In this document: piece by piece, positions 3,778 through 19,049 of the stretch
Position numbering within the stretch: position 1 is the stretch's first letter
Layout: each line of letters opens with the position of its first letter
IMG/VR virus record: IMGVR_UViG_3300006805_000077
Span: 1 to 35,983 of that record
DNA length: 35,983 nt
Reading direction: 5' to 3' (one strand)
Origin: a virus
The notes under the pieces: model-generated
The model's database searches: none
Told to the model about the DNA's origin: nothing
The model's input: the letters and a program-made list of their open reading frames with translations, nothing else
Program-made: the position numbers and the translations under genes

Positions 3778-3788
3778 TATTATCTTTG
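3758..3788 (+). promoter_or_regulatory. Bacteroidota-type promoter
   Basis: TTGACA at 3758-3763, a 17-base spacer, then TATCTTTG at 3781-3788. It lies inside the 3' end of the preceding gene and points at the small gene at 3807, restarting transcription within the glycosyltransferase cluster. Confidence 0.85.
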
Positions 3789-6976: not shown

Positions 6977-7078
6977 TGTTTTTCGCTTGAAGTCGTGAGC
7001 AGGTAAAAAACAATTGCGAATTTTTATAAATTCAAATATAAAGGGCAGCGTCAACTCACGACACGCTGACCCTTTTTT
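6977..7078 (+). ncRNA. Candidate pseudoknotted small RNA or attenuator
   Basis: About 100 nt between a promoter and a T6 terminator, just before the GIY-YIG gene. A middle hairpin pairs GAATTT (7018-7023) with AAATTC (7028-7033). The terminator hairpin pairs GGGCAGCGT (7043-7051) with ACGCTG-A-CCC (7063-7072). Its loop holds CTCACGAC (7055-7062), exactly complementary to GTCGTGAG at 6992-6999. An 8-nt loop-to-upstream match implies a pseudoknot or kissing interaction. It could be a stand-alone RNA or an attenuating leader for the gene at 7086. Confidence 0.62.
7043..7078 (+). terminator. Intrinsic terminator with loop complementarity upstream
   Basis: A 9-bp stem with one bulged A at 7069, an 11-base loop and six T at 7073-7078. 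The only gene immediately downstream starts 8 bases later without its own visible promoter. Read-through or attenuation is therefore implied. Confidence 0.8.
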
Positions 7079-7085
7079 ATTTTAT

Positions 7086-7454
7086 ATGAAATCTCATTGG
7101 AATCACAACATTATTTGGCATAATTTCCCTAAGTCAAATAGGGTAATTAAAGGAGTTTATTTAATTGAAGACTTATACGTTGGAGCATCTATTAGTATTA
7201 GGCAAAGAATATTAAACCATATAAATACTGCATATTCTAATTTGAACAAATACAAATACGTACAATCAGAACTTGCAAGAAATATTTTAGATTTACTTGA
7301 GACTAATAAAGAAATTAATATATACTACTTATCAGACGATCCACTTGAAGAAGAAATATACTACTGGATATGTAAGCCAAAACTAAATAACTTATCGAAA
7401 GGTAAATTTTATGGTCAGCGTTCCGATTACGTTAAAAAATTACAAAACACATAA
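7086..7454 (+). CDS. GIY-YIG domain nuclease
   Basis: Short GIY-YIG endonuclease-fold protein (122 aa). The two-part signature is GVYLI (23-27) and YVGASISIRQRI (31-42), with the catalytic-type Arg39. A Glu-rich helix, EEEIYYWICKPKLN, supplies the usual acidic residue and the typical P-x-LN ending. The ATG at 7086 is chosen because upstream in-frame sequence is the terminator hairpin. No DNA-binding module is fused. Such proteins act as homing or repair nucleases; here the target is unknown. Its position directly after a structured RNA is notable. Confidence 0.75.
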   Translation: MKSHWNHNIIWHNFPKSNRVIKGVYLIEDLYVGASISIRQRILNHINTAYSNLNKYKYVQSELARNILDLLETNKEINIYYLSDDPLEEEIYYWICKPKLNNLSKGKFYGQRSDYVKKLQNT

Positions 7455-8798: not shown

Positions 8799-9182
8799 AT
8801 GAATTATAGTTTAGAAGATTTAGAAAAATTTGTAAATGGACATGGAGACGTAGTATATTACAGAGTTGAAAAATTTTGGTACACTGCAAACCATTATTTA
8901 GCAGACGAGAATAATATTTTTGAAAAATGGAAGTCAAATATAATATTCCCAGTTTATTCAGGAAATTACGAAATGGTTGACCATCCTTCGCATTATGGTG
9001 GAGCAGATAATGTTTACGAAGTGATTAAAATAATCGAACATTTTGGTTTATGCTTCCATCTTGGAAATTTATTGAAGTACGTTTTAAGATGCGGTAAGAA
9101 GGACGACGAGTTACAGGAGTTAAAAAAAGCCAGATGGTATTTGGATAGGAAAATACAAAATTTAGAAAATGGAAGTAAATAA
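8799..9182 (+). CDS. DUF3310 domain protein
   Basis: The C-terminal half matches DUF3310, a domain common in phages: DHPSHYGGADNVYEVIKIIEHFG, then LGNLLKYVLRCGKKDDELQE and LKKARWYLDRKI. Some phage members are annotated as nucleotide-kinase-like, but the biochemical role is not settled. Residues 1-60 are an unrecognised extension. It overlaps the cytosine methyltransferase gene by 14 bases. Confidence 0.82.
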   Translation: MNYSLEDLEKFVNGHGDVVYYRVEKFWYTANHYLADENNIFEKWKSNIIFPVYSGNYEMVDHPSHYGGADNVYEVIKIIEHFGLCFHLGNLLKYVLRCGKKDDELQELKKARWYLDRKIQNLENGSK

Positions 9183-9846
9183 AAAATTAAAGGTATTAAA
9201 TTTGTACGCTTGCCTTGGTGGTAATCGTTATAAGTGGAATCAAGTTGCAGACATAGAAGTTACAGCAGTTGAATGGGATGAAGAATTAGCACGTCTTTAT
9301 CAAGAAAGATTTCCTAATGATAAAGTTATTGTTGCAGATGCTCACCAATATTTATTAGACCATTATAAAGAATTTGATTTTATTTGGTCAAGCCCACCAT
9401 GTCCTAGTCATTCACGTGCTAGGTATTGGAATAGTTCTAATTATGATACTACAACCGAGCCTATCTATCCGGATTTAAAGTTGTATGAGGAAATATTGTT
9501 TTTACAACATTATTACAAAACAGGTAAATATGTAGTTGAAAATGTAATTCCATATTACGAACCATTAATTAATTCTCAAAAACGTGGCAGACATTTATAT
9601 TGGACTAACTTTAAATTACCGAATGATTTAAAAGATAGACGTTTTGCTATTAGCCAAACAAAAGATGAATTAAAAGAATTATGTAAATTCCACGAAATAG
9701 ATATATCAACTTATAAAGGAGATCAAAGTTTAGTTAAAATAGGCAGAAATTTAGTTGACTACGAAGCAGGTAAAACGATATTTGAAACGGCATTAGGGAT
9801 TATCCAGTCAAACAAAAATATTATGCAGTCAGAATTAATATTTTAA
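9169..9846 (+). CDS. DNA C5-cytosine methyltransferase, compact
   Basis: Motif I is seen as VLNLYACLGGNRYKW (9-23). The catalytic Pro-Cys is in SSPPCPSHSRAR, with Cys78 the nucleophile. The ENV motif is at 124-126, and a C-terminal DYEAGKTIFETALGII resembles motif X. At 225 residues it is shorter than usual (300-400), with a reduced target-recognition region and no clear QxRxR motif. It may have narrow or relaxed specificity. Methylation of phage cytosines to evade restriction is the likely role. It is followed by a promoter, so it ends its transcript group. Confidence 0.82.
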   Translation: MEVNKKLKVLNLYACLGGNRYKWNQVADIEVTAVEWDEELARLYQERFPNDKVIVADAHQYLLDHYKEFDFIWSSPPCPSHSRARYWNSSNYDTTTEPIYPDLKLYEEILFLQHYYKTGKYVVENVIPYYEPLINSQKRGRHLYWTNFKLPNDLKDRRFAISQTKDELKELCKFHEIDISTYKGDQSLVKIGRNLVDYEAGKTIFETALGIIQSNKNIMQSELIF

Positions 9847-10584: not shown

Positions 10585-10899
10585 ATGACAGGCGTAGAAT
10601 TAATATCTAAAGAAAGGCGAGAGCAAATAGAAAAGCATGGTAGAACTGTTCAAATGGACGTTGACCATAATAGAGCATATCAATTAGCTGAAGCTGCATC
10701 TGTTTTGACTACTGAAAAATTTAGAAATTCTAAACATAGATTTTCTTTGATGCCAGAAGAATGGGATGATGAAATTTCGCTAAAGATGTGCAAGAAAGGT
10801 AGAAAAGAGAGACTTGCTATTGCAGGTGCTTTGATTGCGGCAGAACTAGACAGAATCATTGAAAACGAAAAGGACAACATTTTAAATTTTATAATATGA
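10585..10899 (+). CDS. Phage protein of the ERRxQI / dATP-dGTP pyrophosphohydrolase N-domain-like type
   Basis: The pattern SKERREQIEKHGRTVQMDVDHN, followed by LAEAASVL, PEEWDDE and RLAIAGALIAAELDRI, matches a widespread small phage family. That family resembles the N-terminal region of dATP/dGTP-pyrophosphohydrolase-annotated proteins. Whether this stand-alone form is catalytic is not known. Overlaps the next gene by 4 bases. Confidence 0.6.
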   Translation: MTGVELISKERREQIEKHGRTVQMDVDHNRAYQLAEAASVLTTEKFRNSKHRFSLMPEEWDDEISLKMCKKGRKERLAIAGALIAAELDRIIENEKDNILNFII

Positions 10900-15367: not shown

Positions 15368-15398
15368 TTGACATTTAAAATAATTGTACTTATCTTTG
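15368..15398 (+). promoter_or_regulatory. Bacteroidota-type promoter
   Basis: TTGACA at 15368-15373, 17 bases, TATCTTTG at 15391-15398. The short leader that follows contains AACACCACAA, a motif that recurs before several start codons in this genome. Confidence 0.9.
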
Positions 15399-15423: not shown

Positions 15424-15711
15424 ATGGGCAGACAGATAGTACGGCAACCAAACGGTAAGTATTTAGTTTATAGCAGTATATGTGATAATGTCGTTTTATA
15501 TGACGCTACACCGCAAGAAATAATTGATTGCTTTGCTGAAGAAGAAAAGGAAAAAATAACTTCTAGTATAAATTCAATTATAGAGAAGTTAGAAAAAGGA
15601 GAAAAGCCTTATTATCAGTTTACAATGAATTTTGAAGAAGTAATAGAAAATATAAAACTTATTCATGGTAAAAAAGAGAGTGATAAGGTATTAAATTTCA
15701 TTACTAAATAA
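15424..15711 (+). CDS. Hypothetical protein
   Basis: Unrecognised 95-residue protein opening MGRQIVRQPNGKYLVYSSICDNVVLYD, followed by an acidic helical part. The N-terminal beta pattern recurs in small phage accessory proteins, but no function is known. It is the first gene after a strong promoter. Confidence 0.62.
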   Translation: MGRQIVRQPNGKYLVYSSICDNVVLYDATPQEIIDCFAEEEKEKITSSINSIIEKLEKGEKPYYQFTMNFEEVIENIKLIHGKKESDKVLNFITK

Positions 15712-15719
15712 CACCACAG

Positions 15720-16073
15720 ATGTTTGACGCAACAGTAGGAAAGCCAAGAAAAGCAGATGTCAATAAAATAGTAAATGAAATGTGGATAGCGTTTCAGATT
15801 GACATTGACTTTGAAGATATCGTAAAAATATGGAATATCGTTTTAGATTCAAACGGAATTTATAGACCATATTTAGAAGGATGGGATCAGGAAGCAGAAA
15901 TGCCATATATCCAAACCAAACCACAAAGTTTTGAATACGAAAGTGAATTGCACTTTCATGACGATACGCTGTATTTCGTTTTTAGTGAAAATCTTAATGA
16001 TAAAACGACTGAAAACGATTGGAAGCAAAAAGTAAAAAATTGGTTTGAGTGGAACAGTATCACTCAACAGTAA
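15720..16073 (+). CDS. Hypothetical acidic protein
   Basis: Unrecognised 117-residue protein. The N-terminal half is helical and the C-terminal half has alternating hydrophobic strands (ESELHFHDDTLYFVFSENL). It follows the previous gene by 8 bases, and its start is preceded by ACACCACAG, the leader motif again. It ends where the structured RNA region begins. Confidence 0.6.
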   Translation: MFDATVGKPRKADVNKIVNEMWIAFQIDIDFEDIVKIWNIVLDSNGIYRPYLEGWDQEAEMPYIQTKPQSFEYESELHFHDDTLYFVFSENLNDKTTENDWKQKVKNWFEWNSITQQ

Positions 16074-16075
16074 GA

Positions 16076-16523
16076 AGCATAAATCCAACACAACGACGTG
16101 GTAGCCTAGAAATAGGAGAGTAATGTCACTGCCTTATTAAATAAGGTACACAAGCATATCCTTAATGTGTAAGGAACGTGCAATGGTTGACACGCTGGAA
16201 AGACAGCTTTTACATCGGGGTGATACAGTAAGGTTAACTGGTAACTGGCTGGGTCAGTGTACTGAAAGTTCGTAGCTTTCCATTCCGACAACACATCAAC
16301 GGAGAGAGCCGCAGAGTGATCGAATCGGGTGAAAGCATCTGAAATTACAGACGAAAACGTGAATAGTACTAGGACGCTAGTTTTGGGTTATGTCTTTTTT
16401 TGATTATGGCATAACAGCAATTTAAATCAATATATCTGTAATCTAAGTGTTAGTAAAGTTTTGAGCGGCTAAATTTTATTACAAACATAGGAACGGTAGA
16501 ATGCACCTTCTCCGTTCCTTTTT
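16076..16523 (+). ncRNA. Large structured non-coding RNA region
   Basis: No convincing reading frame exists here, and the base composition is more G+C-rich than the genes around it. Local hairpins are dense. They include CCTA-GAAA-TAGG (16105-16116), CCTTAT/ATAAGG (16132-16146), TCCTTA/TAAGGA (16159-16175), GCTG/CAGC (16194-16207), TCAG/CTGA (16254-16265), ACTAG/CTAGT (16368-16381) and GTTATGTC/GGCATAAC (16387-16415). A strong terminator closes it at 16490. It lacks the conserved tmRNA and RNase P segments I know, and I could not confirm a group I or group II intron core. It has no promoter of its own and is presumably co-transcribed from 15368. Confidence 0.65.
16490..16523 (+). terminator. 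Intrinsic terminator
   Basis: GGAACGG (16490-16496) pairs with CCGTTCC (16512-16518). An inner AGAA/TTCT pairing and one bulged base extend the stem, and five T follow. It sits 12 bases before the next start codon. Confidence 0.82.
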
Positions 16524-16534
16524 AAAAATTCAAA

Positions 16535-16759
16535 ATGACACCAAAAGAAAAGGCAGATTATTTAGTTACCAAAATATATAGATCTGATATCTCTATACAT
16601 ATAAATGTTTACAGGTCTCGTAAGTTGGCAAAAATATTAGTTGACGAAATATTGGAAGCCACAAAAGGCATGGTTGACGAAGTTTTTGAAGAAGGAGTTA
16701 TTAATTCAAATGAATATTGGATTAAAGTAAAAGGAGAAATTGATAACGCTAGTATATGA
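16535..16759 (+). CDS. Hypothetical small protein (MTPKEKA type)
   Basis: A 74-residue protein opening MTPKEKADYLVTKI and continuing KLAKILVDEILEATKG. This helical pattern is frequent in small genes of Bacteroidota phages, without known function. The protein at 21758 has a similar opening (MTPKEQLHAKI). It overlaps the next gene by 4 bases. Confidence 0.6.
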   Translation: MTPKEKADYLVTKIYRSDISIHINVYRSRKLAKILVDEILEATKGMVDEVFEEGVINSNEYWIKVKGEIDNASI

Positions 16760-17223
16760 AGAAACAATGTAAAGTTTGCTTACAGTCCAAAGATCCAATT
16801 GAAGACTTCTTCAAGAAAGTCAACGTGTGCAAGTCTTGTAAAAACATTCAGCAAAATTTAAGGAACAGAAAATTACCTTTGCCTGAAAGCATGATGGTTA
16901 AAAAGGTAGAATTTAATTGTGTTTGTTCTGTATGTGATACTAAGCAACCAAAGGATTACTTTCAGAAAAAATCAAATGTTTGCAAGGAGTGTATAGCCAA
17001 AAGACAAAAGTTTTACGCTAAGAAAGTTCCACTTCCTGATTACTTGAAATCAAAGAATACCCACAAGGTTTTAAATTTAAACCATGTTTATACTGAAAGA
17101 GTAAGCCAAGAACTAGAGCCATTAAAAATTTGCACTCATACTAAAATATATGAGAATAATGGCTTATCTTTATTGTTGGAATATTCCATAAACGGAAATC
17201 TTTTACATACTCGCAGCTTATGA
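16756..17223 (+). CDS. Tandem zinc-finger protein
   Basis: A 155-residue protein with two matching four-cysteine modules: Cys5/Cys8 with Cys25/Cys28, and Cys57/Cys60 with Cys76/Cys79. Each has a Phe-rich spacer and the ending C-K-x-C. The modules resemble the Zn-binding part seen before phage HNH/endonuclease VII domains, but no HNH motif follows. The C-terminal 60 residues are unrecognised. Directly upstream of the primase-helicase with a 4-base overlap, so a replication accessory role is plausible. Confidence 0.65.
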   Translation: MKKQCKVCLQSKDPIEDFFKKVNVCKSCKNIQQNLRNRKLPLPESMMVKKVEFNCVCSVCDTKQPKDYFQKKSNVCKECIAKRQKFYAKKVPLPDYLKSKNTHKVLNLNHVYTERVSQELEPLKICTHTKIYENNGLSLLLEYSINGNLLHTRSL

Positions 17224-19049
17224 TTTTACAAAAATTGAATGACTTAGGTATAGACCTAAACGGATCCACATCAGGGAGTAAGAAAACTTGGTGTCCAGTT
17301 TGTGCTATCCGTAAGGGTGGAGACAGAAAAGACAAAGACCTTTCTGTAAATATAGATACAGGAGCATACAAGTGTCATTCAAATAACTGTAACTTTCAAG
17401 GTAGAGTTTCGCTGAAGGAATACAAAAGGCCCGAATGGAAACCAAACTTAGCAGGAGTTCCGAGAGACTTAGCGAATTTTGCTTTGAGCAGAGGATTGAG
17501 CCAAGAAACAATCGTTAAAGAGAAAGTCACATTTGAAGGTGGTAATATATTTTTCAATTACTTCAAGAATGAATTGTTGGTCAACTTTAAAAAGAGATCA
17601 ATCAAGGATAAGCATTTCTCACAGTTCCCAGAAGCAGAAAAGATTCTTTACAGACATGATTCTTTGATAGGTAAGACCAAAGGAATTATTGTCGAAGGCG
17701 AGATTGACGCACTTACTTGGGTAGAATTAGGATTTGATTCAGAATACGCCATAGTTAGTTTGGATAACGGAGCAGGAGACAAAGGAGTTCTTGACGGTAA
17801 ATTGGAATGTCTTAAGAATGGAGCGTTATTGGTTGACAAAATTACCGAATGGTATTTAGCAGGAGACAACGACGCAGCAGGAGATTATACATTTAAGGAA
17901 ATTGCTCGAAGGATCGGTGAGTACAGGTGTAAGAAAATAGATTTTGGGAAACATAAAGATTCAAACGAGAAGCTAACCGAACTTATCAATAACGGATTAT
18001 CCAAAGATTTGATCGCTGAGACGTTCAGGAGACTTGTGGACGACGCAAACCCATTGCCAGTCTTAGGTATTCAGCCATTGGATAATCGAATGGTGGACGA
18101 AATGATAGACAGGTATCATAACGGAGTTTCAACAGGTGACGGCATAGGTTCTTCTTTGGATAGTTATTGGACGAACTTAGATGGAGAGTTGACATTGATC
18201 ACAGGATATCCGGGAGACGGCAAATCTCAATTTCTTAGATTTGTAGCCGTTAACCTAGCAATGAAGAAAGGATATAAATTCGCTTGTTATTGCGTTGAGG
18301 ACAACCCTGCTAGTTATTTCTATGAAGATTTGGCGACAATATTCATGGGTAAAAACTTAGACCCAAAATATCCTGATCGTGCTTCAGAAGCAGAATATAG
18401 ATCAGCATTGAATTTTATAAAGGATAAGTTTTTCTATATTCACCCTGAACCTGACCCAATTACAGGAATGTACCCACTGCCTGATAATAAGTGGATAAAC
18501 GAAAAGATAGCATTCTTGAAGTTGCAATATGGCGTTAATTCGTACATCAAAGATCCTTGGAATAAAATATACCACAATTTAGCGATGGCAGAACACAAGT
18601 ACCTAGAGAACGAGTTAAGCAACGAGAAGCTGTTTGGAGGTGGGTACAAGGCGTGTTTGTATGTTGCTCACCCAGTTGGATCGGTTGACAGGGAAAAAGA
18701 TGGAAGCCTAAAAGCACCTACACAGTACAAGATAAGTGGTGGAGCCATGTTTAATAACATGATGGATAACATTATGGTAGTTTTCAGACCCGAAAGAGAG
18801 CTAGACCCAAAAAGTAAGAGAGTTCAAATTTTAATCAAGAAGATCAAGAAAAAGAGAATTAGGGGAGACGAGGGTATTGTTGAGTTTACGTTTCATAAAT
18901 CTACGAATAGGTACGACGAAGCGTTGGACGATATGGGATTTGAAAATTACAACCCGAAGATCGAGAAGAAGATCGAAATGAATGTTGTGGATGGATTTGA
19001 CTTTGAAGACTTAGGCAATCCACTTAATTTTGGCGAAATACCTTTTTAA
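17220..19049 (+). CDS. DNA primase-helicase (T7 gp4/Twinkle type)
   Basis: Bifunctional replication protein, 609 residues. The N-terminal zinc-binding domain has Cys25, Cys28, Cys52 and Cys57. The TOPRIM primase core has VEGEIDALTW (158-167) and GDNDAAGD (215-222). The RecA-like helicase domain has a Walker A GYPGDGKS (329-336), with later conserved segments including YVAHPVG. It would unwind the fork and make primers for phage replication, loaded by the initiator at 7466. All three domains look intact. Confidence 0.93.
   Translation: MILQKLNDLGIDLNGSTSGSKKTWCPVCAIRKGGDRKDKDLSVNIDTGAYKCHSNNCNFQGRVSLKEYKRPEWKPNLAGVPRDLANFALSRGLSQETIVKEKVTFEGGNIFFNYFKNELLVNFKKRSIKDKHFSQFPEAEKILYRHDSLIGKTKGIIVEGEIDALTWVELGFDSEYAIVSLDNGAGDKGVLDGKLECLKNGALLVDKITEWYLAGDNDAAGDYTFKEIARRIGEYRCKKIDFGKHKDSNEKLTELINNGLSKDLIAETFRRLVDDANPLPVLGIQPLDNRMVDEMIDRYHNGVSTGDGIGSSLDSYWTNLDGELTLITGYPGDGKSQFLRFVAVNLAMKKGYKFACYCVEDNPASYFYEDLATIFMGKNLDPKYPDRASEAEYRSALNFIKDKFFYIHPEPDPITGMYPLPDNKWINEKIAFLKLQYGVNSYIKDPWNKIYHNLAMAEHKYLENELSNEKLFGGGYKACLYVAHPVGSVDREKDGSLKAPTQYKISGGAMFNNMMDNIMVVFRPERELDPKSKRVQILIKKIKKKRIRGDEGIVEFTFHKSTNRYDEALDDMGFENYNPKIEKKIEMNVVDGFDFEDLGNPLNFGEIPF

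Follow-up and report, generated by a model that had tools for sequence, protein, structure and literature searches.

In the window analyzed here, the whole 35,983 bp stretch of DNA that makes up a linear IMG/VR virus record, a promoter, two small genes, a noncoding stretch, and a terminator follow one another ahead of the replication genes, and within the noncoding stretch there most likely lies a proline tRNA that is either worn or highly divergent. This tRNA-like cloverleaf is preceded by a 20-nt hairpin that belongs to a covarying module found 5′ of other phage tRNAs. Judged by sequence comparison, this hairpin, common to phage tRNA leaders and to other phage RNAs, is the best-conserved element of the stretch. 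The original prediction had taken the region for one large ornate RNA, perhaps of a new class; the evidence speaks rather for a divergent tRNA locus accompanied by a hairpin that recurs in phages.

Genomic Context of the Noncoding Stretch

The record apparently comes from a Bacteroidota phage, judging from its TTGAC...TATCTTTG promoters and from its primase and terminase, whose relatives belong to phages of Flavobacteriia and related hosts. A Bacteroidota-type promoter, TTGACA ... TATCTTTG, was identified from a motif list on the + strand at 15368–15398, with a predicted transcript start at 15391; the TTGAC...TATCTTTG pattern is also present at 3781, 6333, 6520, 9887, 19672, 25522, and 32137. 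This promoter probably drives the open reading frames (ORFs) at 15424–15711 and 15720–16073 and then the untranslated stretch, and the motif list holds no comparable promoter between 16074 and 16535. The stretch ends, as had been claimed, in a strong intrinsic terminator (GGAACGG...CCGUUCC-UUUUU, + strand, 16489–16524), comprising 7 bp, a one-base bulge, a further 4 bp, and a U-run. The terminator precedes the replication genes; the genes downstream of it, at 16535–19049 on the + strand, are a 74 aa ORF (phrog_21441), a 155 aa ORF rich in Cys pairs, and the primase/helicase. No promoter motif was found between the terminator and 16535.

Elsewhere in the window, a probable ORF at 10585–10899, whose assignment is a guess, encodes a protein with a match to PF24729, the Acb2/Tad1 hairpin domain (E 1.9e-11); anti-CBASS and anti-Thoeris proteins are known to have this fold. 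The region at 7014–7454, which has its own promoter motif in front, shows weak similarity to GIY-YIG endonucleases (E 0.02).

Composition and Folding

The 461 nt between the ORFs at 15720–16073 and 16535–16759 contain no + strand ORF of at least 60 aa. On the minus strand there is a 93-codon stop-free run, to which nothing in Pfam corresponds and only a single weak entry in PHROG (E 0.23); this run and a 30 aa + strand peptide were rejected as genes, neither having a credible family match. The G+C content (0.44 at 16090–16390 versus 0.348 for the whole record) ranks among the highest of the genome's 300-nt windows. Hairpins are abundant, with CCUA-GAAA-UAGG (16105–16116), which carries a GAAA tetraloop, accompanied by more than eight others. 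The region is thus noncoding, rich in hairpins, and less A+T-rich than the genes, all as originally described.

Structure beyond chance is borne out only in part: two sub-blocks, 16094–16182 (z −3.7) and 16440–16524, the terminator block (z −3.2), clearly beat shuffles. When folded entire, the + strand of the stretch shows only a modest gain over shuffles (z −2.1, 1/100 shuffles) and the minus strand scores much the same (z −2.05, 6/100 shuffles), while most 150-nt windows within it have unremarkable fold energies. The 5′ block consists of three + strand hairpins at 16095–16182, including CCUA-GAAA-UAGG (fold z −3.7, 1/200 shuffles as good), and a 3′ block of weaker + strand hairpins occupies 16289–16400 (z −1.0).

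Searches for Known RNA Families and Homologs

A covariance search against Rfam 15 (4227 families), which had been proposed as a check, was run and matched no known class: nothing reaches its gathering score, and the matches at E up to 10 are at chance level. The Rfam models of GOLLD, ROOL, HEARO, and group I and group II introns are unmatched, and no 3′ exon frame lies downstream. For tmRNA, Rfam gives no match and ARAGORN is silent even at 70% thresholds; at default thresholds ARAGORN makes no call in the window. These results bear out the earlier statement, in which no elements of either tmRNA or RNase P had been found and no group I or group II intron could be confirmed. Likenesses noticed by eye to group II D1, the 23S rRNA 3′ end, and a cobalamin leader were unsupported by models.

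A blastn search revealed no homolog of the stretch among 50,697 phages, 72,556 plasmids, and 395 + 397 + 295 (about 1,090) Bacteroidota genomes, nor in the loci of primase relatives, and IMG/VR searches returned no homolog of the whole. A hunt via neighboring proteins and DNA patterns also gave none; matches to GTGAAAGCATCTG were rejected as homologs, those read out having resembled gene sequence. The stretch is absent from Tenacibaculum phage JQ, tooticki, PJN03, and L005, whose primases are 26–42% identical. Because relatives of the region were not found, there is neither conservation of the tRNA nor covariation to be read within the region itself. In tooticki (L003: 3027–3125) and JQ (L002: 2855–2965), short possible H-type pseudoknots lie before the small gene that opens the primase operon; their second stem enters a T-run, and they are perhaps attenuators.

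A tRNA-Pro(UGG)-like Cloverleaf

The sequence 3′ of the UGAC hairpin described below was examined because this hairpin so often precedes tRNAs. A divergent tRNA-Pro(UGG)-like cloverleaf is found there on the + strand (16216–16289), recognized by ARAGORN at lowered thresholds, by its minimum free energy (MFE) fold, and by its resemblance to the tRNAs of a library. ARAGORN, with its thresholds lowered to 90% or 85%, makes a single call in 36 kb, namely this tRNA-Pro(UGG); noise begins at 80%, and of 2000 shuffled versions of the region used as a control, 6 gave any call at 90%. The MFE fold of 16216–16289 alone is the cloverleaf, which is also seen in the fold of the whole stretch, and the similarity of this segment to 143 library phage tRNAs exceeds that of all 60 of 60 shuffles. 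The blocks on either side are unremarkable, with a tRNA resemblance not above shuffles, and were rejected as remnants of tRNA-Leu or tRNA-Ser on that ground.

All four arms are present: a 7-bp acceptor (16216–16222/16281–16287), a D-arm (16226–16240), an anticodon arm (16244–16258) whose stem has four pairs, not five, and a T-arm (16264–16280). None of the stems is broken, and two of the pairs are G-U. Proline identity is given by C1-G72, A73 (16288), and the UGG anticodon; C1 occurs in 6 of the 7 tRNA-Pro of the library versus 7 of its 136 other tRNAs. The closest comparison is drawn with the tRNA-Pro(UGG) of locus L249 (4995–5069), which has the same C1-G72, A73, 7-bp acceptor, GG D-arm, and UGG anticodon, and whose CGUUCCGACCA is resembled by the 3′ end of the cloverleaf, CAUUCCGACAA. 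In both, a GAAAGAC hairpin stands 5′ of the tRNA-Pro, at a gap of 6 nt in L249 and 8 nt in the window.

Unlike phage tRNA-Pro(UGG), the window cloverleaf has C33 in place of the canonical U33, a T-loop UUCGUAG that departs from UUCRANY and lacks A58, one additional base ahead of U8, and CAA replacing CCA at 16289–16291, and it is called at lowered thresholds only; default ARAGORN and the Rfam tRNA model do not call it. The features C33, UUCGUAG, the extra base, and CAA therefore indicate a decaying tRNA or an unusual tRNA-like structure, and because of them, with A58 missing and CCA not encoded, the cloverleaf may not be a working tRNA.

The UGAC/GARAGA Hairpin

The hairpin at 16188–16207 (+ strand), UGAC-AC-GCUG[GAAAGA]CAGC, ends eight bases 5′ of the cloverleaf and fits exactly the consensus of a module that we define here as UGAC, 0–2 nt, a covarying stem, 4 bp or longer and with G-C as its closing pair, and a GARAGA loop. 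Discovery of the module started from the window's own 16-mer, ACGCTGGAAAGACAGC (16192–16207), with which a scan of IMG/VR returned 45 loci. Some of these are coding, and many others fall in noncoding DNA in the neighborhood of phage tRNAs; several bear additional hairpins with the same loop on different stems. Among G[GARAGA]C hairpins built on different stems, 15/18 have GAC at most 2 nt 5′, versus 1/57 permuted-loop controls. When matches to GAC-N4-8-GARAGAC were taken by sequence only, 13 of the 19 at hairpin-bearing loci can pair (1.8 expected), as can 2 of the 15 at loci fetched for other reasons (0.21 expected). The latter two are L096 and L183, fetched as loci with relatives of window proteins. 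The stems carry compensatory changes across instances of the module; separate pair counts agree with this covariation, but they come from rows selected for pairing and are not independent.

In 395 Bacteroidia genomes the hairpin pattern has 7 sequence matches, at most one of them with a stem (3 bp), and the module is therefore not a general chromosomal element. It is the unexpected result of this analysis: no Rfam family matches it, and a literature search, whose scope left out most subscription journals, returned no paper that describes it.

Settings of the Hairpin in Other Phages

At five called phage tRNAs, for Lys (L225), Leu (L242), and Val, Pro, and Thr (L249), the module stands 1–6 nt to the 5′ side, versus a gap of 8 nt between hairpin and cloverleaf in the window. 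It also lies within an Rfam-called phage tmRNA (L249: 5114–5494) and, as tandem triplets, just before a gene judged by eye to be a putative capsid/scaffold gene in L213, L222, and L243. Many instances have no adjoining tRNA, namely those in the capsid leaders, in a family of ∼220-nt RNAs, and in L096. In L096, which was fetched only for its primase, the module is just 5′ of a terminator-like hairpin, near the primase gene.

The ∼220-nt RNAs are ORF-less and belong to tRNA-array phages (L223: 10786–11001; L226: 1602–1825, minus strand; L231: 8269–8503, minus strand; L234: 13672–13893; L247: 3409–3632). The family has covarying helices, ends that pair as GGGAUGA/UCAUCCC, and a UGACGCUGGAAAGACAGC hairpin that is invariant, and it has no Rfam match. 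In the window its model, R1, matches the hairpin alone: a GACGCUGGAAAGACAGC-type hairpin is present in both, the remainder does not align, and no other 10-mer is common to the window and the hairpin-bearing RNAs.

Three further observations concern these and other loci. An inter-tRNA repeat, GGAUGnnUACAGC...CAUCCyGUUGU, occurs in L234 (8080–8147), L226 (7162–7228, minus strand), and L223 (8093–8154, 8239–8356, and 11009–11126), and could form an H-type pseudoknot in which ACAGC pairs with GUUGU. A Chryseobacterium contig (L183: 15900–16300) has two unusual tRNA-like genes, both missed by default ARAGORN; in one of them the call places a 39-nt intron within the anticodon loop, and a UGAC/GARAGA hairpin follows the two genes. 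On the minus strand of L256, about 8840–9390 in reverse-complement coordinates, a region that looks tmRNA-like by eye has an acceptor GGGCGUG/CACGUCC-ACCA, a tag ending in ALVA, and three internal UGAC/GARAGA hairpins; it is called by neither ARAGORN nor Rfam.

Discussion

We consider it probable that a transcript from the promoter at 15391 has this stretch as its untranslated tail, in which a decayed or divergent tRNA-Pro stands together with its leader hairpin. According to this model, an early transcript would start at 15391, cover the two small genes, cross the hairpin-rich block, the UGAC/GARAGA leader hairpin, and the divergent or decaying tRNA-Pro(UGG), and stop at the terminator at 16489–16524. 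As a leader element, the hairpin would act in cis on the RNA that lies to its 3′ side, insulating or positioning the processing of that RNA (cleavage by RNase P, stability of the 5′ end). The tRNA would be charged now or would have been recently, and leaky termination could supply the replication genes, in front of which no promoter is visible. The tRNA and hairpin leave about 200 nt of flanking blocks without explanation.

Were the stretch a single structured RNA of 300–330 nt and of a new class, the cloverleaf and the UGAC hairpin would be domains of one trans-acting molecule. Its richness in hairpins and G+C and the lack of an Rfam match would suit such an RNA, as would the presence of the UGAC hairpin inside the Rfam-less, ORF-less ∼220-nt RNAs of L223, L226, L231, L234, and L247. 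However, a homolog of the whole is absent from every collection searched, R1 and shared 10-mers reach no further than the hairpin, the fold energy is barely above that of shuffles, and a recognizable tRNA fills the middle; we regard this explanation as rather improbable. Nothing shows the 440 nt to be one RNA class, because no homolog of the whole was found. What survives of the original prediction is an untranslated, structured RNA without an Rfam family; a new large ornate RNA is unsupported as stated, and the divergent tRNA-Pro at its center had been overlooked. GOLLD and ROOL are large ornate phage RNAs near tRNA islands, and the stretch resembles them in being untranslated, structured, phage-borne, and tRNA-associated, but it is much shorter, has no sequence in common with them, and matches neither covariance model. 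Size, hairpin content, and phage position would also fit an intron or large RNA of a known kind (group I, group II, HEARO, GOLLD, ROOL, tmRNA, or RNase P), yet with 4227 Rfam families giving nothing beyond chance level at E up to 10, no tmRNA call at 70% thresholds, and no downstream 3′ exon frame, we consider this extremely improbable.

It is also unlikely that the stretch is a dead tRNA remnant plus chance hairpins in ordinary phage intergenic DNA. The defects in the T-loop, at C33, and at the CAA end point that way, as do the modest fold energy and flanks no more tRNA-like than shuffles, whereas the cloverleaf stems, which include the two G-U pairs, are intact, the hairpin is an exact consensus match, and the 5′ and terminator blocks fold far better than shuffles. 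Compatible with the tRNA, and possible though doubtful, is a cis regulatory leader of the nut/put type, in which the RNA ahead of the terminator, and the UGAC hairpin most of all, would let RNA polymerase pass the terminator at 16489–16524 into the replication genes. This alternative arises because those genes have no visible promoter and because the L096 hairpin stands before a terminator-like hairpin close to a primase gene; the module also stands at the start of other transcripts that are long and untranslated or late (tRNA arrays, tmRNA, and putative capsid/scaffold leaders). HK022 put and lambda nut are likewise cis hairpins heading transcripts that must pass terminators, and put works without a dedicated gene product. 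However, put RNA is a ∼70-nt element with two long stems that binds the β′ zinc-binding domain (PMC9378689), whereas the UGAC/GARAGA hairpin has ∼20 nt and is a candidate antiterminator only. Placement just 5′ of tRNAs suits processing equally, and unrecognized promoters may be present. For the hairpin itself, we would give a nut/put-like antitermination role and a processing role similar weight.

For the tRNA-Pro locus, part of an apparent large RNA is a tRNA missed by default programs, which cautions against counting such gaps as new classes. With slightly more confidence than doubt, we see in the hairpin a phage RNA module that is widespread, as yet without a name, and has a common function, which may be leader processing, RNA protection, or antitermination, in its tRNA, tmRNA, capsid/scaffold, and ∼220-nt RNA settings. 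The recurrence in unrelated phages of a hairpin whose flank and loop are invariant and whose stem covaries freely points to a common mechanism at the level of RNA.
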